Assembly (NCBI RefSeq): GCF_014218355.1
Contig: NZ_AP023368.1
Location: 1,492,001-1,556,000 of the forward strand
Source of the DNA: Anaerocolumna chitinilytica
GTDB taxonomy: Bacteria; Bacillota; Clostridia; Lachnospirales; Lachnospiraceae
Length of the DNA: 64,000 bases
Direction: 5' to 3'
Shown here one piece after another: positions 20,270-32,389 of the stretch (within the stretch, counting starts at the first letter, position 1; each line of letters starts with the position of its first letter). A program made the translations under genes and the position numbers. The notes under the pieces were generated by a model, which saw only the letters and a program-made list of their open reading frames with translations, searched no databases and had not been told where the DNA came from.

Positions 20270-22477
20270 TTATTTCCTGTTTTTGGCTAACGAAGGAGCA
20301 GAGATGTTATCTGTTTCTTTTTCTTTTCGTTTCTCCCACATTGCCCAAAGAGTGCCTGCTACACAGATGGAAGAGTAGCAGCCGGTAACGATACCAAAAA
20401 ACATAGGCAGTGAGAACTCCATGATTGAGTCAATATGGAATACCAATGAGGCAATCAATATGATAAGGACACAAATACCGGTAGTAGAGGAGGTATTGAT
20501 AGACCTGCCAAGGGTCTGTGTCGTGCTTTCATTAACCAATTCCACTACTGATGTTTTAACAGATTTTTTACGGTTCTCACGGATTCTGTCATAAATTACG
20601 ATGGTATCGTTCATGGAATATCCGATTACTGTCAGAACTACTGCCACAAAGGCATCATTTAGTGGAATTCCAAATAGTACAAAGGCAAAAAAGACCACAA
20701 AGGCGTCATGTATTAAAGCAATCAATGCTGTTACTCCGGCAGGCAGACCCGATAGTGCGGAGAATCTTATCCATACATAAACCAAGATAAAGGCAGAGGA
20801 GAGAACAATAGCAAGACCTGCATTCTTAAGTGCTTTTGCTCCTATATAGGGTTCCACAACAAAAGTTTGGGACAGTTTTGCATTAAGCTTATCGGAGGTA
20901 CCATTAATGGCGTTTGTGATAGCTTTCTGGTCATCCGGGGACATTCCGGCGTTTCCTGCAAGAGTTACGGATAACCGCTTAAGGCCGGTGAGATTTTCTT
21001 CCTTAATCTGTACCGTAACCGGTCTGTTGGTTTCTTTTTGAATGGACTCCTGGATTTTACCGGTATCGGCACTTCCTGATACGGAATAGGTCAAAACAGC
21101 ACCTCCGGTAAACTGAGTATCTAATTTTACACCCTTTGCGAAGCAGCCAATGATACCGGAGAGTATAATTACACCTGAAATAATGGCAAATATATATTTT
21201 TTCTGGTAAAAGGGAATTGTCTTTTTCTCTTTTCTGATACGGAACCATTTCCGGTCACGCCACTTGTCATATTCGACCAGGGACAACAGGAGGTGCTTTG
21301 ACAGAGTCACGCCCACTAAGATATTTACAATCATGCCGATCAGGAGGGTATAGCCAAAGCTTAACATGGAACCGGATCCAAAGATCATCAGGATGACGGC
21401 AACAATAGCGGTTGTAACATTTCCATCCAAAACAGAGGAGAAAGCATGTTTATAGCCGTATACAATGGCTCCTCTGACAGGCATTCCTTTTCTTAATTCA
21501 TCCGAAATACGTTCCGAAATGATAATATTGGCATCCACCGCCATACCAAGGGTAAGTATAATTCCGGCAATGCCCGGCAGTGTCAGTGTGTACTGAGGAA
21601 TAGAGATAGCAAGCATCTGCAGTAACATCTGTAATACCAATATAATACAGGCAGCAATACCGGGTAATTTGTACATGATTATCATAAAGGTGCATACAAC
21701 AAAGAATGCAATAATTCCGGCAGCTACCATAATATTCAACGCATTGCTGCCAAGCGTCGGACTTATGGTCAAAAAGTTGGTGGTTTCCAGTGAGAAGGGA
21801 AGTGCTCCCGCATTAATCTTAGCGGCCAGCTCCTTTGCTTCATCATAACTTGCAAGGTTTGTAATAACAGCCTGGCCGCCTGATATCTTTGTTTCTACGG
21901 TGGGGCTGGAGATAAGATTCTTATCCATGTAAATGCTCATCCTCTGTCCGATAAGTTTACCGGTAGCATCCTCGAATTCCTTCGCTCCCTTGGAATTGAA
22001 TTTTAAGGATACTAAGAATTCTCTTGTGACACCTGAAACATTCGTCTCCGGCGTCGCACTTTCCACATCCTTTCCTTGAATCAGTACTTTTCCATTAGGA
22101 TCCTGAAAGGTGAGTTCTGCCATTTCCCCCAGTTCTGCAATGGCATCCTCGGGTTTAAAGCTGGTCTCCCCGGATTTCCAGGGAAACTGTACAATAATAT
22201 AACCTGCAGTTTTATCCACCGTTACTTCACGGTCTGATATATTCTGGTTGTCCAGCCTGGTTTCAATGACCTCTCTGGCAGACTCCAGTTCCTTTGCGGT
22301 AGGCTTCCGGTTAAGTCCCTGAGGTTCAAAAACAGCTTCCACACCTCCGCGGATATCAATACCGTAACGCATGTCAAAAACACCTTTGACAGCGCTTCCG
22401 ATTCCAAAAACTGCAATATAAATAAAAACTGCTATAGTGATAAAGATAGCAGCAAGCATTTTCTTTCCTGGCTTCAT
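20270..22477 (-). CDS. secDF: Protein translocase subunits SecD-SecF, fused
   Basis: 735 aa bifunctional accessory subunit of the Sec translocon that uses the proton-motive force to pull exported proteins through the membrane. The SecD half has the first membrane helix, a large extracytoplasmic P1 domain (about 35-240), and helices with GIILTLGMAVDANIII. The SecF half starts near residue 425, with its own DTQFTGG segment and GYSMNDTIVIYDRIRE. Twelve membrane segments are expected. Fusion of the two is known in Bacillus and in some clostridia. An AAAAGGGGAT site precedes the ATG. It may be cotranscribed with the two small genes upstream. Confidence 0.95.
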   Translation of the reverse strand: MKPGKKMLAAIFITIAVFIYIAVFGIGSAVKGVFDMRYGIDIRGGVEAVFEPQGLNRKPTAKELESAREVIETRLDNQNISDREVTVDKTAGYIIVQFPWKSGETSFKPEDAIAELGEMAELTFQDPNGKVLIQGKDVESATPETNVSGVTREFLVSLKFNSKGAKEFEDATGKLIGQRMSIYMDKNLISSPTVETKISGGQAVITNLASYDEAKELAAKINAGALPFSLETTNFLTISPTLGSNALNIMVAAGIIAFFVVCTFMIIMYKLPGIAACIILVLQMLLQMLAISIPQYTLTLPGIAGIILTLGMAVDANIIISERISDELRKGMPVRGAIVYGYKHAFSSVLDGNVTTAIVAVILMIFGSGSMLSFGYTLLIGMIVNILVGVTLSKHLLLSLVEYDKWRDRKWFRIRKEKKTIPFYQKKYIFAIISGVIILSGIIGCFAKGVKLDTQFTGGAVLTYSVSGSADTGKIQESIQKETNRPVTVQIKEENLTGLKRLSVTLAGNAGMSPDDQKAITNAINGTSDKLNAKLSQTFVVEPYIGAKALKNAGLAIVLSSAFILVYVWIRFSALSGLPAGVTALIALIHDAFVVFFAFVLFGIPLNDAFVAVVLTVIGYSMNDTIVIYDRIRENRKKSVKTSVVELVNESTTQTLGRSINTSSTTGICVLIILIASLVFHIDSIMEFSLPMFFGIVTGCYSSICVAGTLWAMWEKRKEKETDNISAPSLAKNRK

Positions 22478-22517
22478 AGGTTTATCCCCTTTTCTTATTC
22501 AATTTTCAATAGGCCAT

Positions 22518-22943
22518 TTAAATGCTTGCTGGTTCTCCTTTCGCACCATCCGAATTATGTATGAATTCTATCAGATACGTCCTGGCAGTATAGCCCCCTT
22601 GTAACAGGACAGTTAATAAAGTCCATAGTATAAGGGGTATATATAAGAGGACGGTCTTTAAAAAGATATATTTTAAGGGTAATACCCTAAAGTACAAAGA
22701 AGAGGATGTAAGGACATCAGAAACCTGAGCTGAGATTCCTCCCGACGGCTCGGCTGCTTCATTTATTGCATCTGCCTTTTTGCTGCGGGAAAGATTGTTG
22801 GAAAATGAACCTGCAGAAGTTACTGGTCCATAAGCAGAATCGGAGTCGATACCAGGGTTATTCAATTCTATCAATAAAAGGGCTGTACAAAATAAAAATA
22901 CCAGTATACAGCGGACAGACAGCCTGTGTTTCGAAGAGAACAT
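22518..22943 (-). CDS. Hypothetical two-helix membrane protein
   Basis: 141 aa. I do not recognise the family. Residues 8-26 and about 88-114 are hydrophobic. The loop between (about 65 aa, rich in Ser and Ala) should face outside if the N-terminus is inside. The GGGAGGAG site before the ATG is strong, supporting real translation. It lies between the Fur-family regulator and secDF, 32-41 bp from each, on the same strand, so it is probably in the same operon. A role linked to export or to metal stress is possible but unsupported. Confidence 0.6.
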   Translation of the reverse strand: MFSSKHRLSVRCILVFLFCTALLLIELNNPGIDSDSAYGPVTSAGSFSNNLSRSKKADAINEAAEPSGGISAQVSDVLTSSSLYFRVLPLKYIFLKTVLLYIPLILWTLLTVLLQGGYTARTYLIEFIHNSDGAKGEPASI

Positions 22944-22974
22944 TTTGGTACTCCTCCCGTATTAAGTGTTTTTG

Positions 22975-23406
22975 TTACTTTTCATCCTCATCTGAAGGTA
23001 AATGTTTGATACAATCCGGGCATATTCCATAGATCTCTAAGTTATGACCGGTAATGGTATAACCGGTTTTCTCAGCCAGATTCTCTTCAATGGGCTCAAG
23101 AGGGCAGATATCAATATTTACTTTCTTATTGCACATGGAACAGATAAGGGAATGCCTGTGTTTGTGATTGTTGATTTCAAAGTAAGTCTTCCCATCCTGA
23201 TACAAAGTCTTAATAACAATATTCTTATCGACCAGTGCATTTAAAGCGCGGTAGATGGTAGATAAGTTCATCTTTATATCTTTTGACGCTATCTCTGCAA
23301 TCTCCTCCACCGTAAGAGCGGTTGGAGCAGCTTCCAACACAGAAAGAATCAAATTCCTTTTTTTTGTCTGTTTTAAATCGGCAGATTTTAGTATATTGTT
23401 GTTCAC
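22975..23406 (-). CDS. zur: Fur-family metalloregulator, probably Zur
   Basis: 143 aa from a GTG start with AGAGGTG upstream. The N-terminal winged helix (about 10-80) includes TALTVEEIAE and STIYRALNALVDK. The C-terminal dimerisation domain has the structural zinc site CSMC (about 95-98) and CPDC (about 133-136), and a regulatory region with the HKHRH cluster near 87. Fur, Zur and PerR look alike, so sequence alone does not settle the metal. The divergent neighbour is a CobW-type zinc-chaperone gene, then a zinc-lacking L33 and ZnuABC, so Zur is the best call. Candidate operators are at 23604-23622 and 27327-27345. Confidence 0.82.
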   Translation of the reverse strand: MNNNILKSADLKQTKKRNLILSVLEAAPTALTVEEIAEIASKDIKMNLSTIYRALNALVDKNIVIKTLYQDGKTYFEINNHKHRHSLICSMCNKKVNIDICPLEPIEENLAEKTGYTITGHNLEIYGICPDCIKHLPSDEDEK

Positions 23407-23570
23407 AATGCACCTCTCCCTTTTATCAATTCAAGTTTTTACTGATTTACTAAATAAAATCATAGTTTACCTGTCATGAAATGTCAAGCACAATAAAGAA
23501 TAGTACAGGATATGCAGGAATCAATCTAGGGAAATCTACGATAAGCAGAGGATAATCAGGTATTAATTCG

Positions 23571-23622
23571 TTGACAAGGTAATAGAATAGAGGTATATTA
23601 AAAGCAAATGTGTTGCATTTGC
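23571..23622 (+). promoter_or_regulatory. Promoter and candidate Zur box of the cobW operon
   Basis: The -35 TTGACA (23571-23576) and -10 TATATT (23594-23599) are 17 bp apart. The dyad GCAAAT-N7-ATTTGC lies at 23604-23622, over the expected transcription start, where a repressor would block initiation. The same dyad is at 27327-27345 before rpmG. Confidence 0.7.
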
Positions 23623-23717
23623 AATTATGCGTAATTTTAAAAAATATACTGTAAACAAGCTTGCAGCTAAGAAATCCTCTTGCAATCTTGTAGTACAACC
23701 AGGAGGCATTGAAGTTT

Positions 23718-24695
23718 ATGGCTGTTAAGATAGATATATTTTCTGGATTTCTAGGTGCAGGGAAGACAACTCTGATAAAAAAGTTTTTGGAAGAGGCCTT
23801 TAAGGGTGAGAAAATAGCTTTAATTGAGAATGAATTTGGAACGGTCGGTATTGACGGAAAGATTATGAAGAGTTACGATCTGCAGATTACCGAGCTGAAT
23901 GCAGGCTGCATCTGCTGTAGTATAGCAGGAGATTTTACACAGGGACTAAAGGAGGTATTAAAGCAATATAAGCCGGACCGAATCCTGATTGAGCCTTCAG
24001 GTGTCAGTAAACTGTCCGATGTCATAAAAGGCTGTAGCCCTTTTTTTAGAGAGGGGATTGTAGAACTTGATTTATGCATCACCGTGGTAGATGCAGGTAA
24101 GTATAAGATGTATCTTAAGAATTTTCCTGAGTTCTATAAGGACCAGCTGAAATTCGCAAAAACAATCATACTAAGCCGGACAGCAATAGGAAACCGAGAG
24201 AAACTAGATGGTATTCTGGAAGATATCAGGCACTACAATAGGGAAGCTGCTATTATCACGACAGACTGGGAGAGCCTTTCTGGTATGGCAATTCTTAAGA
24301 TTGCAAGGGAAGAACATAGAAGCAGCCTGGAGGAGGACCTTCAGAGGGAAAAGAGGACTATCAGGTTAAATCCTGCCAAGGTAACCGGCACCTGCATTGA
24401 GAAAGTGGGAAGAAGCACCTGTGCGGAAGAGGTATTTTCGGTGTGGGGAGTTGAAACTTCCAGAGTATTCAGCCGAGAGAAACTAAAAGATATTCTTCAT
24501 AAGCTGGAGGCAGAGGACATGCAAATCCTTCGTGGCAAGGGTATCCTGGAAGCCGATAATCATCAATGGCTGCAATTTGACTATGTTCCTGGAGAAATCA
24601 CTATAAGAGAATGGGTGCCGGATTATATCGGAAGAATCTGTATTATTGGCAGTAAGGTTAATGAGGACCGTTTAAAGCAGTTATTTGAAATTTAG
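23718..24695 (+). CDS. CobW/ZNG-family GTPase (putative zinc chaperone)
   Basis: 325 aa from the ATG at 23718 (AGGAGG 11 nt upstream; a TTG at 23709 is too close to that site). G3E-family P-loop GTPase. Walker A is GFLGAGKTT (about 8-16), the metal-binding CxCC motif is CICC (64-67), and the switch segment ILIEPSGVS is intact. A guanine-specificity NKxD motif is not obvious: the expected position reads LSRT. The C-terminal CobW_C domain starts near 235. Relatives such as YciC and ZNG1 insert zinc into target proteins under zinc starvation. It is the first gene downstream of the candidate Zur box and divergent from zur. Confidence 0.85.
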   Translation: MAVKIDIFSGFLGAGKTTLIKKFLEEAFKGEKIALIENEFGTVGIDGKIMKSYDLQITELNAGCICCSIAGDFTQGLKEVLKQYKPDRILIEPSGVSKLSDVIKGCSPFFREGIVELDLCITVVDAGKYKMYLKNFPEFYKDQLKFAKTIILSRTAIGNREKLDGILEDIRHYNREAAIITTDWESLSGMAILKIAREEHRSSLEEDLQREKRTIRLNPAKVTGTCIEKVGRSTCAEEVFSVWGVETSRVFSREKLKDILHKLEAEDMQILRGKGILEADNHQWLQFDYVPGEITIREWVPDYIGRICIIGSKVNEDRLKQLFEI

Positions 24696-24709
24696 GATAA
24701 GGAGTGGTT

Positions 24710-26275
24710 ATGGCAATCGATATTGATGTAGTAACTGGGTTTTTAGAAAGCGGAAAAACTACGTTTATCAAGCAAATGATAAAGAGCGGTGTGACAAAAG
24801 ACTACGAAAGAATGATTCTGCTTCTTTGTGAGGAGGGAGTGGAAGAATACGAGAAAGAAATCCTGGAGAAGTATAATGTTACCCTTATACCGGTGGAAGA
24901 CCGGCAGATACTTACCGGTGAATACCTTGCGAAGATTTGCGAAGGCGGTACTTCGGATTACATATTGATAGAATACAACGGAACATGGGATATGCAGTAT
25001 ATTCTGGGGAATAAATTAAAAGGTGATTGCCGTATAAGAAATATCGTATTTGTCAGTGAAGCAGCTACTTTTCATACTTATTACAGCAATATGGGAGGAC
25101 TTTTAAGGCCACAGATAGAGAATAGTGATTATGTGGTTGTTAACCGCTATGAAAATCAAATAGAAAATGAGAAAAAAGAAATAAAAAATAAGATAAAAGC
25201 GTTAAATAAAAAAATTAAAACAGTATTTTTAAACAGCCCTGCTGAGGATAAAAGGTTTCTGCGAATCTTTACACCCTATGAGGATTTCAAAAAAACAGTA
25301 ACTCCGGGGATGATTATACTGTTGGCGGTATTGGTTGGATTATGTTTTCTGCCAACTAAATATCTTTCTTATGCCTATGATTACACAAATAAGATTTCTG
25401 TTTCTTTTCTCAGTATTTTAATTCAAGCGATACCTTTTCTGCTGCTAGGCGCATTTTTATCCTCCTACTTACAATTGCTTGTACCGGTAGGATTCCTAAG
25501 CAGACAACTTGGTAAAAATAACTGGAAATCCTTTCTGGCAGCAGGATTGGCAGGTTTTTTCTTTCCGGTATGTGACTGCGGCCTGGCACCTTTCGTATCA
25601 GGTTTATTAAAGAAGAATCTGCCGCTGCCTCAGGTAATTGCCTTTTGGCTGGCTTCAGCCTCTGTTAATCCGGTCGTAATCCTATCTGTGTGTTATGCCT
25701 TTCCGGATAATAGGAGGATAGTTCTTGCGAGAATTTTTGCAGGAGTCATTATTGGTATAACCGTGGGAGTTATCCTGCTGCTCTTACGAATACCCACGAA
25801 GGATGTTATACGGCCGGATGCAGGGCTGACTAAAATGAGCGTTGATATGGTTTATGAAAGCAGTAAGAGAGGAAAGTTCTTATCAGTTATAAAGGGAGCG
25901 CGGGAAGAATTCTTCCGTGTGTTTCGTTATGTTATCTTTGGCGCATTTATTTCGTCCCTATGTCTGACCTTTTTGCCCCAGACGATCAAGATGTTTATTA
26001 GTTCCAGTGCACTGCTGCAGTTTTTCATTATGCTTGGGGCAGCTGTCTTTATGTCCACCTGTTCTACCTCCAATGCCTTTATCGGAAGAAGTTTTTACGG
26101 ACAGTTTGCATTACCCGCCGTACTTTCTTTTATGGTACTTGGACCAATGCTGGACTTTAAGAACATCATTATTCTCTCTGAGGTACTTACGAAAAAGTTT
26201 CTGTTTCAGCTGTGCCTGTTAACGGCAGTGGTTGGTTTTTTAACCTATACCCTGCTGATGTTTCTTCTTTTGTAA
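24710..26275 (+). CDS. CobW-like domain fused to a YraQ/DUF318 permease
   Basis: 521 aa from the ATG at 24710 (AAGGAG 6 nt upstream). Residues 1-195 are a G3E-like P-loop domain: Walker A is GFLESGKTT, and a degenerate switch reads ILIEYNGTW where the neighbour has IEPSG. The CxCC metal motif is missing. Residues from about 203 to 521 form a polytopic permease of the YraQ/ArsP-like DUF318 family. It has the paired signatures VCDCGLAPF (C288, C290) and STCSTSNAF (C451), each within membrane helices. I do not know a characterised protein with this fusion. It sits between the CobW GTPase and a TIGR03943 gene, so a zinc or related metal transport role is inferred. Confidence 0.82.
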   Translation: MAIDIDVVTGFLESGKTTFIKQMIKSGVTKDYERMILLLCEEGVEEYEKEILEKYNVTLIPVEDRQILTGEYLAKICEGGTSDYILIEYNGTWDMQYILGNKLKGDCRIRNIVFVSEAATFHTYYSNMGGLLRPQIENSDYVVVNRYENQIENEKKEIKNKIKALNKKIKTVFLNSPAEDKRFLRIFTPYEDFKKTVTPGMIILLAVLVGLCFLPTKYLSYAYDYTNKISVSFLSILIQAIPFLLLGAFLSSYLQLLVPVGFLSRQLGKNNWKSFLAAGLAGFFFPVCDCGLAPFVSGLLKKNLPLPQVIAFWLASASVNPVVILSVCYAFPDNRRIVLARIFAGVIIGITVGVILLLLRIPTKDVIRPDAGLTKMSVDMVYESSKRGKFLSVIKGAREEFFRVFRYVIFGAFISSLCLTFLPQTIKMFISSSALLQFFIMLGAAVFMSTCSTSNAFIGRSFYGQFALPAVLSFMVLGPMLDFKNIIILSEVLTKKFLFQLCLLTAVVGFLTYTLLMFLLL

Positions 26276-26351
26276 AACACCGAAATGAATTATTTAGTGG
26301 AAAAGTATTAGCACAGACAGGAATCGTATTGGAAAGGATATGGTTATTCAT

Positions 26352-27272
26352 ATGAGAGGAAATAAGAATCTGGAAATATATATGAAACTAATAGTATTTA
26401 TTGCCCTGGCTACGCTTTTACTATATGAGCTGCTTTCCGGCAAAGTCTATTATTACGTGCATCCCAGATACCTGTACGGCATTTGGTTTGCAGTAGCAGC
26501 TCTTTTGGTATTTGCACTTACTACAGTAGGAGAACTTCAAAAAGGAAGGCATAATCCCGATATAAAGCCTTATTTTCTTTACTTGCTGCCCGTTGTATTT
26601 GCACTGCTGTTTCCAGCTATGGAAGGAGGGAATGGCAATATTGCAATTGCACAAAGCAGTAAAGCACAAGAAAGTAATTTGAACGAAAATCAGGCAGGCG
26701 GTGCCATAGAAGGAGATGAGCCAGCAGGAAGGAATGAAAAATCCAATAATTCCTGGGATACCTCCGGTAACAGCTCCGAGGATTCTGCAGGGAGCGTTTT
26801 AGATTCTGCCGGTGACCTGACATCTGATGGTAATTCTTCATATGAGGAAGTAGAGGATGCAGCGGAGAAGGACAGGTCTCTCAAATATAAGAAGAAGACA
26901 GAAGACGGTGCAATTCTAATCAGCGATGATGAGTTTGGCTGCTGGTATTTTGAACTTTTTGATTTCCTGAAGGATTTTAAGGGGAAGCGCTATCAATTCA
27001 CCGCACAAGTACTTACCATGGAAGATTTAAAAGACAATCAACTGCTGGCCGGAAGATATATTATGACCTGCTGTGCCCTGGATTTGATAGGATACGGATT
27101 GATTACGGAGACCGGCCTAAGCGGTAAATTAAAAGAAAATCAATGGATTACGGTTACCGGAACAATTGGTGAATATAAATACAAGGGTAATATTGTCCCC
27201 ATGTTAAAGGATGTGGTTATTACCAAAACAAAGGCACCGAAAGAAGAGTATGTTTATTACAGCTATTATTAA
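26352..27272 (+). CDS. TIGR03943 family membrane protein
   Basis: 306 aa from the ATG at 26352; an ATG at 26340 is possible but lies on top of the GGAAAGG site. Three N-terminal membrane segments (about 5-95) are followed by a Ser/Asp/Glu-rich linker (about 100-180) and a soluble C-terminal domain with the family segment CCALDLIGYG. Members (such as YcgQ of Bacillus) occur next to DUF318 permeases and are thought to be partner subunits. It follows the permease fusion by 76 bp and probably belongs to the same operon. The biochemical role is unknown. Confidence 0.82.
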   Translation: MRGNKNLEIYMKLIVFIALATLLLYELLSGKVYYYVHPRYLYGIWFAVAALLVFALTTVGELQKGRHNPDIKPYFLYLLPVVFALLFPAMEGGNGNIAIAQSSKAQESNLNENQAGGAIEGDEPAGRNEKSNNSWDTSGNSSEDSAGSVLDSAGDLTSDGNSSYEEVEDAAEKDRSLKYKKKTEDGAILISDDEFGCWYFELFDFLKDFKGKRYQFTAQVLTMEDLKDNQLLAGRYIMTCCALDLIGYGLITETGLSGKLKENQWITVTGTIGEYKYKGNIVPMLKDVVITKTKAPKEEYVYYSYY

Positions 27273-27285
27273 AAATATTTGGGGA

Positions 27286-27345
27286 TTGACAAATACAATT
27301 ATTGTGGTATGATAGGTTCAGTAAATGCAAATGCAAATGATTTGC
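27286..27345 (+). promoter_or_regulatory. Promoter and candidate Zur box of rpmG-znuA
   Basis: The -35 TTGACA (27286-27291) and -10 TATGAT (27308-27313) are 16 bp apart. GCAAAT-N7-ATTTGC (27327-27345) follows, with an embedded shorter palindrome GCAAATGATTTGC. The spacing and half-sites match the dyad at 23604-23622 exactly. Confidence 0.72.
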
Positions 27346-27364
27346 TTTTGGAAAGGAAACCGAC

Positions 27365-27514
27365 ATGAGAGTGAAAATAGTACTGGAATGCACAGAGTGC
27401 CATGACCGTAATTATGTAACCACGAAGAATAAGCAGAAGCATCCCGAACGTATAGAAGTTATGAAATATTGTCCTCGTTTGAAAAAATATACGCTTCACA
27501 AAGAAACCAAATAA
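27365..27514 (+). CDS. rpmG: 50S ribosomal protein L33, reduced-cysteine form
   Basis: 49 aa, translated from ATG 27365 after a GGAAAGGAAAC site. The sequence is L33 throughout ([12 protein letters not shown], then YCPR and TLHKETK). Zinc-binding L33 has two CxxC pairs. Here the first pair is intact (C9, C12), but the second reads C36-P-R-L39, with the last cysteine replaced. This should weaken or abolish zinc binding. Bacteria often express zinc-free L33/L31/S14 copies under Zur control so that ribosomes can release zinc. The candidate Zur box just upstream and the zinc importer just downstream fit that role. Confidence 0.92.
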
Positions 27515-27627
27515 CGAAATGAATTTACATAATATGGTTAAACTATAAGATAAAGGAACTGGTATTTCACATAGGTGTTTGAACCTGCCAGCTAACAGCG
27601 GGTTATGGAAAGGAAATGGTTATTATT

Positions 27628-28599
27628 ATGAAGAGAATTATCTGCCTGTTTACAGCCATTATGCTTATCGCGGTTTTAACTGCCGGCTGTGGCAATAAGA
27701 ATGAAAATAACAAGGAACCCCAGGTATCTTCCGCTGAAACGGGAGGAGAGGCATCCGGTGATGCTAAGAACTCAGATACAGGAGATAAGCTGAAGGTTGT
27801 CACAAGTTTCTACGCCATGTATGACTTTGCTGAAAAGATTGGCGGCGACAAAGTAAGCGTTATTAATATGGTACCGGCAGGAATTGAGCCTCACGACTGG
27901 GAACCGGCAGCTTCGGATATTACGAATCTGGAGAAAGCACAGGTATTTATTTATAACGGTGCAGGGATGGAACATTGGGTAGATACGGTGTTAGACAGTC
28001 TTAGCAACAAAGAACTGGTGATAACCGAAGCTTCTTCCGGTATTACCTTGCAGAAAGGTCATAGTGAAGAAGAAGGTACTTATGACCCCCATGTATGGCT
28101 GAATCCGGAAAATGCAAAATCAGAGATGAACAATATCAAGGAAGCTTTTATTAAGGCTGATCCGAATAATGAAGCTAATTACAGTGAGAATTATGAGACC
28201 TACGCTGCTAAATTAGACGCCCTTGACAAAAAATATAAGGAAACCTTGACAGCCCTTGAAAATAAAGATATCATAGTAGCACATGAGGCCTTTGGTTATT
28301 TATGCAATGCTTATGGACTGAATCAGGTAGGGATTGAAGGCCTGTCCCCGGATTCGGAACCGGACCCGTCTAAGATGGAAGAAACCATTCAATTTGCAAA
28401 GGACAATAAGGTCAAGGTTATCTTTTTTGAAGAATTGGTCAGCCCGAAGGTAGCTGAGACCATTGCGAAAGAAGTAGGAGTAAAAACAGACGTCTTAAAC
28501 CCTCTGGAAGGATTGTCCGAGGATGATATAAAAGCTGGCGGAGATTATTTCTCAGTGATGGAAACGAATCTTACAAGTCTGGCAGAAGCTTTAAAATAG
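27628..28599 (+). CDS. znuA: Zinc ABC transporter substrate-binding lipoprotein
   Basis: 323 aa from ATG 27628 (GGAAAGG upstream; an ATG at 27616 overlaps that site). A signal peptide ends with the lipobox LTAGC (Cys 21), followed by a polar linker and the ZnuA/AdcA-type cluster A-I fold. The expected metal ligands are present: H89 in EPHDWEP, H155 in YDPHVW, and H219 in AHEAFGY, with an acidic fourth ligand expected in the late FFEEL segment. The usual His-rich loop is reduced to GHSEEEG. Three His favour zinc over manganese. It follows rpmG without a terminator between, so both should be in the Zur-controlled unit. Confidence 0.92.
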   Translation: MKRIICLFTAIMLIAVLTAGCGNKNENNKEPQVSSAETGGEASGDAKNSDTGDKLKVVTSFYAMYDFAEKIGGDKVSVINMVPAGIEPHDWEPAASDITNLEKAQVFIYNGAGMEHWVDTVLDSLSNKELVITEASSGITLQKGHSEEEGTYDPHVWLNPENAKSEMNNIKEAFIKADPNNEANYSENYETYAAKLDALDKKYKETLTALENKDIIVAHEAFGYLCNAYGLNQVGIEGLSPDSEPDPSKMEETIQFAKDNKVKVIFFEELVSPKVAETIAKEVGVKTDVLNPLEGLSEDDIKAGGDYFSVMETNLTSLAEALK

Positions 28600-28608
28600 A
28601 AACCGCAG

Positions 28609-28665
28609 GAAGGGGTTGTTTGCAGAAACGTATTATTTCGTTTCAGTTGCAGCAGCACCTTCTTT
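28609..28665 (+). terminator. Hairpin between znuA and znuC
   Basis: GAAGGGGTTGTTTGCAGAAACG pairs in two blocks with CGTTTC...TTGCAGCAGCACCTTC, followed by T5. It may end the rpmG-znuA message or only reduce read-through into znuCB, giving more binding protein than membrane subunits. Confidence 0.65.
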
Positions 28666-28788
28666 TTGAGGATTTGCAGTATTTTGGGTTTTGAATTATT
28701 GGGATATTTCATTCACATTAAATATAGATTCAGGAATATTTTTCAGACGCTTTAAAAAGCCTGAAAGATACTCACGAAAGAGGTTGGA

Positions 28789-29475
28789 ATGCAGGCAATA
28801 GAAATACAGAATGTGGACTTTGCATACGGAAAAGAACTTATCTTAAAAGAAGCTTCCGCTGTAATAGAAGGTGGGGATTTTATCGCCCTTACCGGTGAAA
28901 ACGGAACGGGTAAGAGCACTCTTTTAAGGCTGCTTTTAGCAGAATTAAAACCGCTTCGCGGCAGAATCAGACTGTTGGGAGAAGATAATGATAAGGTTAT
29001 CCGAAGCGGAAAAGTGGGTTATGTTGCCCAGAACGGTACTTATGCCAATCAGAATTTTCCGGCTACGGTGGAAGAAATCGTGACGGCAAATCTATATAAG
29101 CAGATTGGTTTGTTTCGTTTCCCTTCGAAAAGTCATAAACACCAGGTTTACGAAGCTTTGGAAAAGCTTAAGATGTCGGAATATGCGAAAACCTTGATCG
29201 GAGAGCTTTCAGGAGGTCAGCAGCAGCGGGTTATGCTCGCCAGAGCACTGGTAATAAAACCTGAACTCCTGATATTAGATGAACCAACAACCGGGATTGA
29301 CATGAAGTCCGTCAGGCAGCTCTATGAGATTCTGGGTGAACTGCATAAGAGCGAAAAACTGACGATACTTATGGTTACCCACGGACATTTGGAGGAATGT
29401 GCAGGAATAAACAGAATTCTGCAGCTGGAAGATGGGAAGATAGGTGAAGTCGTTGGAAATGGGGTGAAGCTATGA
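28789..29475 (+). CDS. znuC: Zinc ABC transporter ATP-binding protein
   Basis: 228 aa. Walker A is GENGTGKST (about 37-45), the signature is LSGGQQQR, and Walker B is LLILDEPTTGID. Sequence and partner genes place it in the metal-type (ZnuC/AdcC) ABC family. An AAAGAGG site precedes the ATG. Its stop codon overlaps the start of the permease gene by 4 bp (ATGA), so the two are translationally coupled. It is separated from znuA by a terminator-like hairpin. Confidence 0.92.
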   Translation: MQAIEIQNVDFAYGKELILKEASAVIEGGDFIALTGENGTGKSTLLRLLLAELKPLRGRIRLLGEDNDKVIRSGKVGYVAQNGTYANQNFPATVEEIVTANLYKQIGLFRFPSKSHKHQVYEALEKLKMSEYAKTLIGELSGGQQQRVMLARALVIKPELLILDEPTTGIDMKSVRQLYEILGELHKSEKLTILMVTHGHLEECAGINRILQLEDGKIGEVVGNGVKL

Positions 29476-30287
29476 GTATTTTACAGTATCCTTTTATGCA
29501 AAGGGCATTTCTTGTAGGAATTCTCTTAGCAGTGATAGCACCCTGTATCGGTATGACTATTGTATTGCAGAGAAAATCAATGATAGGGGATGCTCTATCC
29601 CATACTTCTCTGGCAGGTGTAGCAATTGGTATTCTGCTTGGAATCAATCCGATTCTGGGAGCAACCGGTACCTGTATAGCAGCTGCCCTGAGTATAGAAT
29701 TTATTCAAAGGAAAATACCAAGATATTCGGAAATGGCAATTGCGATTATTATGTCAACAGGAATTGGTCTGGCTGGTGTGCTTTCTGGCTTTACCAAAAG
29801 CAGCGGGAATTTTAACAGCTTTTTGTTCGGTAGTATTGTTGCTATAAGCGATATGGAACTGCGGATGGTTGTCATCATAAGTGTGTGTGTCTTAGCTGCT
29901 TTTCTTCTTCTCTATAAAGAACTTTTCTATATTGGATTTGATGAAAGGGCAGCCAGGATAGCAGGAGTACCGGTAAGATTGGTGAACTTTATCTTTACCA
30001 TGCTGACAGCGCTTACCATATCCATTGCCTCCAGAACAGTAGGAGCTTTGGTTGTATCCTCTTTATTGGTAATCCCGGTAGCCTGTGGTATGCAGATAGG
30101 AAGAAGTTATAAGATGACCCTTGCCTCCTCTATGATTTTTGCCGTATTCTTTACGGTTTGCGGACTGACATTATCCTACTATTGGAAACTGAAACCCGGC
30201 GGTACAATTGTATTGACCGGAGTAGTTTGCTTTGTGGTAATTGTAATCCTCAAGGCTTTGTTAAAATCTCTGCGCCGGGCCGGCTAA
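29472..30287 (+). CDS. znuB: Zinc ABC transporter permease
   Basis: 271 aa, eight or so hydrophobic segments. It has the ABC-3 family segments GMTIVLQRKSMIGDALSH near residue 17 and PVRLVNF near 155, and a C-terminal cluster of helices. It overlaps znuC by 4 bp. Together with ZnuA and ZnuC it should form a high-affinity zinc importer. A terminator follows 56 bp downstream. Confidence 0.92.
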   Translation: MSILQYPFMQRAFLVGILLAVIAPCIGMTIVLQRKSMIGDALSHTSLAGVAIGILLGINPILGATGTCIAAALSIEFIQRKIPRYSEMAIAIIMSTGIGLAGVLSGFTKSSGNFNSFLFGSIVAISDMELRMVVIISVCVLAAFLLLYKELFYIGFDERAARIAGVPVRLVNFIFTMLTALTISIASRTVGALVVSSLLVIPVACGMQIGRSYKMTLASSMIFAVFFTVCGLTLSYYWKLKPGGTIVLTGVVCFVVIVILKALLKSLRRAG

Positions 30288-30607
30288 AGAGAGTCTTAAT
30301 CAATAAAAGAACTTCATTGCATTTTCTTAAAAGTATCCTTTGAACTTCACTCTGTTTGAACGATACAGGAAATTGTAGTGAAGTTTTTTTATTTTAACAA
30401 CATGCCAAGAATATACAAGAAATCACAAGAATTACATATTTACAAAATATGTAAAAGAAGAGAAAGTGTAATTGTAGGGGACAGGTTTTGTAGGAAATTT
30501 ACAAAAGAAGGTGAAGGGAGGAATGAAAAAGATTCAAAGTAAACAAAACCCAAAATAGTACAGTTGATGTTGCTAGAAGTTTAAATAATTGACAAGGAGG
30601 GATAGCT
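30288..30607. other. Intergenic region before the GH64 gene
   Basis: No gene seen. It holds the znuCB terminator and, at 30432-30454, a perfect 10-bp inverted repeat with a 3-nt centre (TTACATATTT-ACA-AAATATGTAA). That is about 155 bp before the glucanase start and is a candidate operator. Confidence 0.6.
30343..30390 (+). terminator. Terminator of znuCB
   Basis: AACTTCACT pairs with AGTGAAGTT around a 25-nt loop and ends in T7. Confidence 0.8.
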
Positions 30608-32389
30608 ATGAGTAAGAAATTATTAAGGTGTAGTTTGGTTTTATTATTAATACTGTCAATGCTGCTTCCTGCTAAAGTCTTAGCTGCAGACTATACACAG
30701 GGAGTAAATGTTTCGGGTAATAATGCCGTCATATGGTTCAAATCTACAGTGAGCACTACTTGGGTGGATGTCCATTACAGCGTTAATTCCGGTCCACAGC
30801 AAAACTTAAGAATGACCTATAATTCGGCAAATGCAAGATACGAACAAACAGTTGATTCTGCCGCAAATGCAGTAATTGTATACTCCTTCACTTATAACAA
30901 TGGCACCCCGGCCTATGACACATCTACTTTTACATACACGGGACAGGCTGGCGGTATCAACAGCGGAAGCGTTTATAAGATAACTAGTAAGGTAAGCGGT
31001 AAAGTGCTGGACATTACCGATAAGTCTACAGCAGCCGGAGCCAAATTAGAGCAATGGACGAATTATGATACCACCAACCAACAGTTTAAGGTTGAGAAAC
31101 AGTCGGATGGCTATTATAAGATCACTGCTATGCACAGCGGGCTGGTTCTGGATGTGCCTAACAGTTCCTTAAGTAATAGCGTTCAATTACAGCAGTGGAC
31201 GGATAATGGCAGCAGTGCTCAGAGATGGAGTATCGTTGACGTTGGAGGCGGCTACTATAAGGTAATCTCAAAGGTCAGCGGACTGGCTATGGATGTACGC
31301 AGCTCTCAGACAAACGATGGTGCGGTGGTTCAACAGTATACGGATAACGGAACGGATGCTCAGAAGTGGTCCTTTACAATTGCAAACACCTCCGGCGGAT
31401 CAACCCAGGGTTCTATTTATTCTATAGCAGCCTCATCTATACCGACTCCTGGAAATGGAGGCGTTAGTGTTAAGGTTATGAATGGAACAAATGGTGCTTA
31501 TGCTGACAGTAATATTTACTGGGGCGTTATCGATATTAATCCTGCTAACGGTGCATGGAGCTATTTGGACCTGTCCGGTAATCTTATAGCAATTTCCACA
31601 AGTCTTAACGATGCAGCCGGACATTTGACCAAAAACGGTATTAATTATGCAAACATCTATCATAAAGTAAGCGAAACTTCCTGGGTGAATCTGCCGAAGA
31701 TAACTTCAGGGAGAATGTTCTTAAGTGTAGGTTCACCTTGCTACATCAAGACCTACAATGATGGTTTTGCAGGCCCGGATATAAATAATCCTACAGATCC
31801 CAACAAAGATGTATATTTTGACTTTGTTGAATTCACAGTAGATGCCGCCGGATACCATGGGAATACTACAAGAGTAGATCAGTTTGGTTTCCCGGTTCAG
31901 CACAGACTGGTTAATAAAGCCGGAAACTATGACAGGACAGTAGGAGAGCTGGAATCCGAAACCCGTGCCGGTTTATTTACGAAGTTCCAAAATGAAGTTC
32001 CGACAGAATTTAAGTCCTTGGCTACACTTCAAGCACCTTATCGTATTGTTTGCCCTATCAGCGGCCCGTTTAATACTGGGGGAACTTACGCCAATTATTT
32101 CTCCGGTTATTCCAGCATATCGACCAGAGATATTTTACTGGGTATCGGAGGAGCCAGTGATGCCTCTGTTTGTGCCGCACTTAACAGACATGTGTACGGA
32201 AATACCTCTGATTGGAACAATGTAAGCAAATATTATCAGGCGGCACCTGCCAACTACTATGCAAAATTCTGGCACAATCATAGTATCGATGGTTTAGCTT
32301 ATGGCTTCTGCTATGACGATGTGAACGGGCAGGCGTCTTACCTGGAAGTAGGTGACCCGAAGGGACTTATTATAAGGGTAGGCTGGTAA
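30608..32389 (+). CDS. Secreted GH64 beta-1,3-glucanase with CBM56 and CBM13
   Basis: 593 aa with AAGGAGG before the ATG. Residues 1-27 are a signal peptide ending LAA. Residues about 28-110 (VIWFKSTVSTTWVDVHYS) match a CBM56-type beta-1,3-glucan-binding module. About 116-258 is a ricin-B/CBM13 trefoil with three repeats ending QQF, QRW and QKW. About 265-593 is the GH64 catalytic domain. Its two catalytic acids are E408 (in FDFVEFT) and D424 (in TRVDQF). They are 16 residues apart, as in the laminaripentaose-producing enzyme of Streptomyces (E154, D170). It should release laminari-oligosaccharides from fungal or algal beta-1,3-glucan outside the cell. Confidence 0.9.
   Translation: MSKKLLRCSLVLLLILSMLLPAKVLAADYTQGVNVSGNNAVIWFKSTVSTTWVDVHYSVNSGPQQNLRMTYNSANARYEQTVDSAANAVIVYSFTYNNGTPAYDTSTFTYTGQAGGINSGSVYKITSKVSGKVLDITDKSTAAGAKLEQWTNYDTTNQQFKVEKQSDGYYKITAMHSGLVLDVPNSSLSNSVQLQQWTDNGSSAQRWSIVDVGGGYYKVISKVSGLAMDVRSSQTNDGAVVQQYTDNGTDAQKWSFTIANTSGGSTQGSIYSIAASSIPTPGNGGVSVKVMNGTNGAYADSNIYWGVIDINPANGAWSYLDLSGNLIAISTSLNDAAGHLTKNGINYANIYHKVSETSWVNLPKITSGRMFLSVGSPCYIKTYNDGFAGPDINNPTDPNKDVYFDFVEFTVDAAGYHGNTTRVDQFGFPVQHRLVNKAGNYDRTVGELESETRAGLFTKFQNEVPTEFKSLATLQAPYRIVCPISGPFNTGGTYANYFSGYSSISTRDILLGIGGASDASVCAALNRHVYGNTSDWNNVSKYYQAAPANYYAKFWHNHSIDGLAYGFCYDDVNGQASYLEVGDPKGLIIRVGW

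Follow-up and report, generated by a model that had tools for sequence, protein, structure and literature searches.

The region analysed here, called the window, is a stretch of 64,000 nucleotides of the Anaerocolumna chitinilytica genome (contig NZ_AP023368.1, positions 1,492,001 to 1,556,000). Around a gene that fuses a CobW-like domain to a permease, the following features are found (window positions):

22975-23406, minus strand: FUR-family regulator, Zur candidate, divergent (PF01475, 83.3 bits; cut-off 23.1)
23571-23599, plus strand: promoter-like TTGACA-17-TATATT, followed at 23604-23622 by the putative operator GCAAATGTGTTGCATTTGC (promoter scan, inverted repeat)
23718-24695, plus strand: stand-alone CobW, a metal-carrying type of G3E protein with CxCC, IEPSGVSKLSDV and LSRT (PF02492, 139 bits; CobW_C, 40.6 bits)
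24710-25228, plus strand: CxCC-less G3E-type domain with an E-x-N-G signature, residues 1-173 of the fused protein (PF02492 at 7-172; conservation)
25310-26275, plus strand: PF03773 (ArsP_1 / UPF0718) permease part, same frame, from residue 201 (155.4 bits; CDC 288-290, Cys 451)
26340-27272, plus strand: TIGR03943 / DUF1980 protein, three TM-like stretches, C-terminal domain with TCCALD (TIGR03943, 117.5 bits; PF21537, 94.6 bits)
27286-27313, plus strand: second promoter-like site, TTGACA-16-TATGAT, followed at 27327-27345 by the putative operator GCAAATGCAAATGATTTGC (promoter scan, inverted repeat)
27333-27345, plus strand: GCAAATGATTTGC, inside the putative operator GCAAATGCAAATGATTTGC
27365-27514, plus strand: ribosomal protein L33 paralog without the second CxxC (CTEC...CPRL; translation; PF00471, 78.8 bits)
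27616-28599, plus strand: ZnuA-type zinc-binding lipoprotein (PF01297, 308.1 bits)
28789-29475, plus strand: ZnuC-type ABC ATPase (profile matches)
29472-30287, plus strand: ZnuB-type ABC-3 permease (PF00950, 206.6 bits)

The fused gene (24710-26275, plus strand) is a single intact open frame of 521 residues, starting 14 bases behind the stop of the stand-alone CobW gene. Its product matches cobW (PF02492) at residues 7-172 (47.9 bits; cut-off 20.7) and ArsP_1 (PF03773) at residues 232-512 (155.4 bits; cut-off 32.3). Its length and the motifs attributed to it by the initial annotation of this DNA, GFLESGKTT (10-18), CDCG (288-291) and a CSTSN stretch including Cys 451, are as described there. 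That annotation proposed looking for the same domain order across genomes, and named a frameshift or an assembly join of two genes as what would undo the fusion. A homologue search with the fused protein gave 315 proteins at E<=1e-3; both domains are present in 114 of the best 120, and of the 121 proteins P0001-P0121, which include that of the window, 116 exceed 490 residues. The cobW-permease order is kept in at least 115 further full-length proteins, at 98 to 33% identity, and the match in the window genome contains no internal stop. Thus the fusion is real, being found intact in many genomes, and an artefact, for which no supporting point was found, is so improbable that it can be set aside.

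The G domain of the fused protein occurs in three architectures. In the first, examined at 32 loci, it is fused to the PF03773 permease. In the second, named split, a G-domain gene of 209-218 codons lies directly before a separate permease gene (L060-L064); L109, included among the five permease-only loci in the counts below, actually has a further split order, with permease, TIGR03943 gene, CobW and then a 214-residue G-domain gene reading ELNG. In the third, named class 3 (19 loci: L010-L012, L071-L083, L111, L112 and L120), proteins of ~315 residues carry the same G domain joined to the C-terminal domain of DUF1980, with no permease. A search for class 3 homologues yielded 4825 proteins at E<=1e-3, some of which may be plain CobW proteins; all of the best 120, which are those listed, have both Pfam domains and a CC..D motif, and none has a TM-like stretch. 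Database names of class 3 proteins include ‘GTPase’, ‘GTP-binding protein’, ‘TIGR03943 putative permease subunit’ and ‘membrane protein’, the last two being in use although TM-like stretches are found in 0/120 of the listed proteins.

Both halves of the permease fusion are matched in 17 of 391 genomes of the class sample, and a partial match to a fused frame is seen in two more (G243 and G024); in the phylum sample (n = 398), fused frames are found in G745, G725, G688 and G770. In the family sample the fusion is present in 7 of 200 genomes, one of them matched at 80-520. The fused-protein profile is matched at E<=1e-28 in 179 of these 200 genomes, the seven permease fusions among them, and the matches listed are mostly frames of 310-360 residues. 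Twelve such family loci (L094-L105) were fetched: all twelve have E-x-N-G with a CC motif 462-468 bases on, and ten have CxCC upstream within the short flank. Judged by profile match and frame length, most genera sampled in the window's family appear to have class 3. The fused profile finds nothing at E<=1e-28 in G796, a genome from the genus of the window genome, and so the locus does not seem to be fixed in this genus. Among the 20 genomes with class 3 frames, of which 13 were read at the locus and seven are known by frame length only, 13 lack a PF03773 match, as do 9 of the 15 that are near-complete (>=90% complete, <=5% contaminated). Since class 3 has no permease and most of these genomes have no PF03773, permease gating cannot be the sole job of the domain. 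Neighbours shared by class 3 loci, looked for by eye in six loci listed by ORF, comprise no common gene beyond the CxCC CobW. The close relatives L010 and L011 both contain an ABC transporter set, and at L072:4588-6774 the class 3 pair lies behind CobH- and CobQ-like, apparent cobalamin genes (by eye), unlike the other listed loci.

Conservation of the G domain was read in an alignment of 118 rows, two of which are short at the N-terminus, hence 116 rows over the N-terminal part. Nine nucleotide-site positions (G10, G15, K16, T17, E41, G43, E88, N90 and G91) are invariant in 116/116 rows. N145 is found in 118/118 and R146 in 115/118 rows, C40 in 113/116 and W93 in 115/116, and this conservation holds over fused proteins down to 33% identity. 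A profile search of the PDB finds YjiA as a solved homologue, aligned over positions 4-173 at E 4.7e-08 (entries 1nij and 4ixm; 4ixn reads Ala at the Glu of IENEFG and at two Cys of CICC); the single-sequence PDB search with the fused protein gave E-values of 1 or worse. In the profile alignment, residue 39 of the fused domain stands opposite the Glu of the YjiA IENEFG motif and is most often V, Q, L, I or C (its five most frequent letters); nothing in the fused domain corresponds to the CICC stretch. CxCC occurs in 0/116 fused proteins, in keeping with the initial description of the window's copy, and in 0/120 of the listed class 3 proteins. CobW_C (PF07683), usual in COG0523 proteins, gives no Pfam match in the fused protein. 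With its metal ligands lost and its nucleotide-site residues kept, the domain has given up its metal site and not its nucleotide site; it is a candidate for nucleotide binding, with the residues for GTP hydrolysis apparently kept.

The motif EYNGTW, exact in 97/116 fused proteins, had been taken for a degenerate switch, and the domain for a pseudo-GTPase. Neither description holds, for E88, N90 and G91 are found in 116/116 rows, N145 in 118/118, and the part that was lost is the metal site. At the place where CxCC partners read E-P-S-G, E-x-N-G is found in the window, at 30 of 31 other fused loci, at 5/5 split and at 19/19 class 3 loci; the exception is the L110 fused protein with EFNS. By its sequence conservation, EYNGTW is the E-x-N-G signature of a separate G3E-type group, not decay. 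It could still be argued that the domain is an inert remnant, left when a duplicated CobW domain became part of a gene fusion and began to drift, as it has neither CxCC nor CobW_C and scores lower with PF02492 than the neighbouring CobW (47.9 versus 139 bits). This is contradicted by the nine invariant nucleotide-site positions and by C40 and W93, and is very improbable.

In the permease part, CDC and C451 are present in 118/118 rows. The membrane motif around Cys 451 reads CSTSNAF in 101 of 116 fused proteins and CSE(A/V/T)DAF in 7 of 10 split or permease-only rows (L060-L068, L109); two acidic residues are thus missing from the fused form, and their loss perhaps means a changed coupling. Distant fused rows are intermediate, with CSTSDAF in L049 and L058 and CSSSDAV in L069. 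The fused protein stays below the equivalog cut-offs of the SO_0444 Cu/Zn efflux model NF033936 (57.2 of 300 bits) and of the SaoE model NF040736 (56.7 of 325 bits). The downstream gene (26340-27272) exceeds the TIGR03943 equivalog cut-off (117.5 versus 88.8 bits), and such a gene is present at 31 of 32 fused loci, the contig of the remaining one (L115) ending just behind the permease; the association of the permease with TIGR03943 proteins, proposed earlier, was borne out. The class 3 protein of L010 scores 77.4 bits with this model, below the cut-off.

Simple hydropathy gives three TM-like stretches in 53/56 TIGR03943 proteins, with mean charges of +1.5 at the N-terminus, +1.3 in loop 1, +3.1 in loop 2 and -2.5 after the third stretch. 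Topology of membrane proteins follows the positive-inside rule and, because of this charge pattern, the Cys-Cys domain is predicted to lie outside the membrane. In class 3 it should be inside the cell. The domain would thus work on both membrane sides, which the mechanism proposed below explains poorly. Two TM helices are given for ScfB, a TIGR03943 relative, in the accessible part of PMC5584981; with two helices and the N-terminus inside, the Cys-Cys domain would be inside and the topological puzzle removed.

The stand-alone CobW gene, for which the start ATG 23718 is preferred over TTG 23709, has the three marks of COG0523 (PF02492, CXCC and CobW_C), its GCICCS preserving the CICC motif reported initially. 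ZagA and ZNG1 are COG0523 / G3E metallochaperone GTPases. CxCC CobW genes are found in the fetched stretch at 27/32 fused, 5/5 split and 19/19 class 3 loci. Among the fused exceptions, L110 is cut by the contig end; for the other four, L053, L058, L113 and L114, the genome encodes a CxCC CobW at another place (L127, L060, L120 and L128). In an alignment read by eye, the partners display the signature EP[ST]GV[GAS][KQL]L, together with [ST][RH] replacing NKxD, in 36 of 37 rows, the exception being the ZigA-like CobW beside the class 3 gene of L082. By this signature, the partner CxCC CobW is a type of its own. That the fused domain serves as receptor for it, as suggested in the initial annotation, is plausible and, among the possible readings, agrees best with the linkage.

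The genes surrounding the fusion support the earlier designation as a probable zinc operon, with a FUR-type regulator, ZnuABC genes, an L33 paralog and a repeated operator. The regulator, one of four FUR-family genes in the window genome, reaches no NCBIfam cut-off, and its 33.1 of 167 bits with the PRK11639 Zur model is weak evidence, as few Zur models were compared and other FUR models fail too. The genome's only other L33 copy reads CTEC...CKFC, and its contrast with CTEC...CPRL is what we take to be the pattern of a zinc-sparing paralog. A FUR-family gene and an operator common to co-located zinc genes, as in Zur regulons, are both found, and the operon is very probably zinc-responsive. 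Checked across genomes, as had been proposed for zur, FUR or ZnuA is present in the fetched stretch at 23/32 fused, 0/5 split, 0/19 class 3 and 2/5 permease-only loci. Hence the zinc setting is that of the permease fusions, not of the domain; with neither gene at 9/32 fused loci and at all five split loci, a tie to zinc is no general property of the domain. The idea that class 3 forms another zinc operon was rejected for now, with FUR, ZnuA and operator in 0/19 loci. Control by a riboswitch was also considered and rejected: there is no Rfam match in window 22000-31500, and eight class 3 loci gave only tRNAs, T-box and sRNA, none before the gene pair.

The putative operator is an inverted repeat found at most 20 bases behind each of two promoter-like sites, both among the four that score 11 of 12 (24 sites for the whole scan versus 19.4 in shuffles). 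It takes the form GCAAATG-N5-CATTTGC or GCAAAT-N-ATTTGC. In the 5.6-Mb genome, GCAAAT-N1-9-ATTTGC occurs at 11 places versus three for the reversed control, and the 6-1-6 form has just two places, window 27333 and G000:C1:3295482, the second of which precedes a locus with a His-rich CobW. At that locus (L001:934-3224, G000:C1 ~3293204-3295494), GCAAATCATTTGC lies just before a 47-residue CobW-like P-loop ORF, followed by a 268-residue ORF and a His-rich, ZigA-like CobW; it is likely a second zinc operon of the window genome with a truncated CobW copy. Counted as GC[AG]AATG-N5-CATT[TC]GC or GCAAAT-N-ATTTGC, operators are found at 13 sites in 10 of 32 fused loci (9 of 31 besides the window), versus five sites in total over 20 Markov-resampled copies of these loci, and none in the class 3 (19), split (5) or permease-only (5) loci. 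They lie behind a similar TTGACA...TATAGT promoter and before the CobW gene in L008 (4708) and L009 (4746), upstream of CobW in L049, and at or near Znu gene starts in L059, L110, L113, L114, L115 and L116. Because of its position and neighbours, the repeat is regarded as a putative zinc-responsive FUR-type operator.

In a tree of 71 rows, a branch (98/91) separates the CxCC-less domains, without exception, from the CxCC partners and from three other CobW proteins. Class 3 forms a group (100/98) that, as drawn, also takes in the fused row L070, which has a long branch; placing L070 outside class 3 gives a tree that is not rejected. A single clade for all permease-fused G domains is disfavoured (p-AU 0.016), long branches being in play, so that fusion or fission may have occurred more than once. 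Going outward from the CxCC partners, the tree first reaches permease-linked forms, and class 3 lies beyond window-type fusions. In the DUF1980_C tree, class 3 is grouped (98/95), weakly next to window-type loci (71/51). Given the operon order G domain, permease, TM part and DUF1980_C, class 3 would arise by a single deletion removing the membrane part, and such an origin is suggested.

Collectively, it is tempting to propose for the fused protein the role of a zinc-starvation permease that carries its own docking GTPase, a mechanism to which, as a whole, we give a probability of about 0.45. The N-terminal G3E-type domain would be one half of a two-GTPase set, the other half being the upstream CxCC CobW. 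At low zinc, the FUR/Zur-type repressor would release both operons. The CxCC CobW would then dock as a heterodimer, in a nucleotide-dependent manner, on the G domain tethered to the permease, and metal passing through the Cys/Asp motifs of the permease would be handed straight to the chaperone rather than released. The permease would be fed by TIGR03943, whose Cys-Cys domain would lie outside the membrane. In class 3, with the docking domain joined directly to the Cys-Cys domain, as though by excision of the membrane part, the protein would form a cytosolic relay with the CxCC CobW. What we infer here is the docking as a heterodimer (from linkage and signatures), the gating by nucleotide, the transport direction and the identity of the cargo as zinc. 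Extended to all architectures, the proposal becomes a two-GTPase relay, in which a CxCC chaperone and a metal-free E-x-N-G sister, mounted on a permease or on DUF1980_C, form an obligate heterodimer. This extension is offered tentatively, the odds being rather against it. If true, its permease form would be a GTPase-docked zinc importer, neither ABC, ZIP nor P-type, and its DUF1980_C form a cytosolic relay, apparently in the common gene set of the window's family.

Import has a counterpoint in SO_0444, the one relative found with a tested role, which is an exporter according to the accessible part of PMC3219624. The permease might thus export metal or a chelate, with the extracytoplasmic Cys-Cys domain of TIGR03943 supplying envelope enzymes and the G domain acting, in the cytosol, as a loading dock for the CxCC CobW. 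The Shewanella SO_0444 is needed under Zn or Cu stress (PMC3219624, accessible part), ScfA/ScfB (YcgR/YcgQ) matter for infection fitness in a streptococcus, and B. subtilis ycgR/ycgQ are under envelope ECF sigma factors (both PMC5584981, accessible part); the predicted outside location of the TIGR03943 C-domain would fit as well. However, FUR/ZnuA genes at the window and 23/32 fused loci, with operators of low-zinc type, describe a setting where zinc export is futile, and the SO_0444 model gives just 57.2 of 300 bits, leaving export unlikely. Less likely still is a nucleotide sensor acting without partner, whereby the domain would bind GTP/GDP and gate the permease by energy status, CobW being merely co-regulated. 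Such a sensor would account for the kept nucleotide-site residues and for a GTPase-type domain in one chain with a permease, but not for the same domain without a permease in its chain, PF03773 being absent in 13/20 class 3 genomes (9/15 near-complete), nor for the linkage to CxCC CobW in all three arrangements.

In a full-text search, with subscription papers mostly outside its scope, no mention of a CobW-PF03773 or CobW-DUF1980 fusion was found. No paper was found that co-mentions CobW, permease and DUF318, or COG0523 and COG0701, or any two of CobW, UPF0718, YraQ, PF03773, COG0701 and YcgQ. In the accessible text of PMC2770081, ‘permease’ and ‘fusion’ each occur 0 times, and the fusion is unmentioned in the accessible parts of PMC6103462, PMC3219624, PMC10092412, PMC5584981, PMC5020093 and PMC10957091. 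As far as these texts go, SO_0444 is treated in PMC3219624 and PMC10092412, ScfAB corresponds to YcgR/YcgQ with unknown function (PMC5584981), and a review describes the contribution of COG0523 GTPases to zinc homeostasis as unclear (PMC6103462). The novelty here lies in a CxCC-less G3E-type partner domain that recurs in three mountings and for which this search found no published function. That a CxCC GTPase is encoded next to a permease with a built-in metal-free sister suggests that hand-over takes place directly at the membrane, and the permease-free pair appears to be present in about nine of ten sampled genomes of the window's family (profile match and frame length).

Four known systems invite comparison. 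The downstream gene of the window is a member of the TIGR03943 / DUF1980 family (YcgQ, ScfB); class 3 differs in that the C-terminal domain of this family follows directly on the G3E-type domain in one protein, with no TM helices. The permease part resembles the PF03773 permeases (YraQ, YcgR/ScfA, ArsP, SO_0444, SaoE) in its 155.4-bit match and its CDC and Cys motifs, and the fused protein differs from them by its N-terminal G3E-type domain, by CSTSNAF and by its zinc-starvation setting. Like Zur regulons, whose gene lists in the accessible part of PMC6103462 include such genes, the window operon contains ZnuABC, a CobW-type GTPase, an alternative L33 and putative operators behind promoters; it differs by the G3E-permease fusion, unmentioned in the accessible parts of the literature found. 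With the COG0523 / G3E GTPases (YjiA, CobW, YciC), the fused domain shares PF02492, the YjiA profile match and the zinc-limitation setting. CXCC is given for all COG0523 members in the accessible text of Haas et al. 2009 (PMC2770081); the fused domain departs from them in having neither CXCC nor CobW_C, in reading E-x-N-G for E-P-S-G, and in being joined to a permease or to DUF1980_C.
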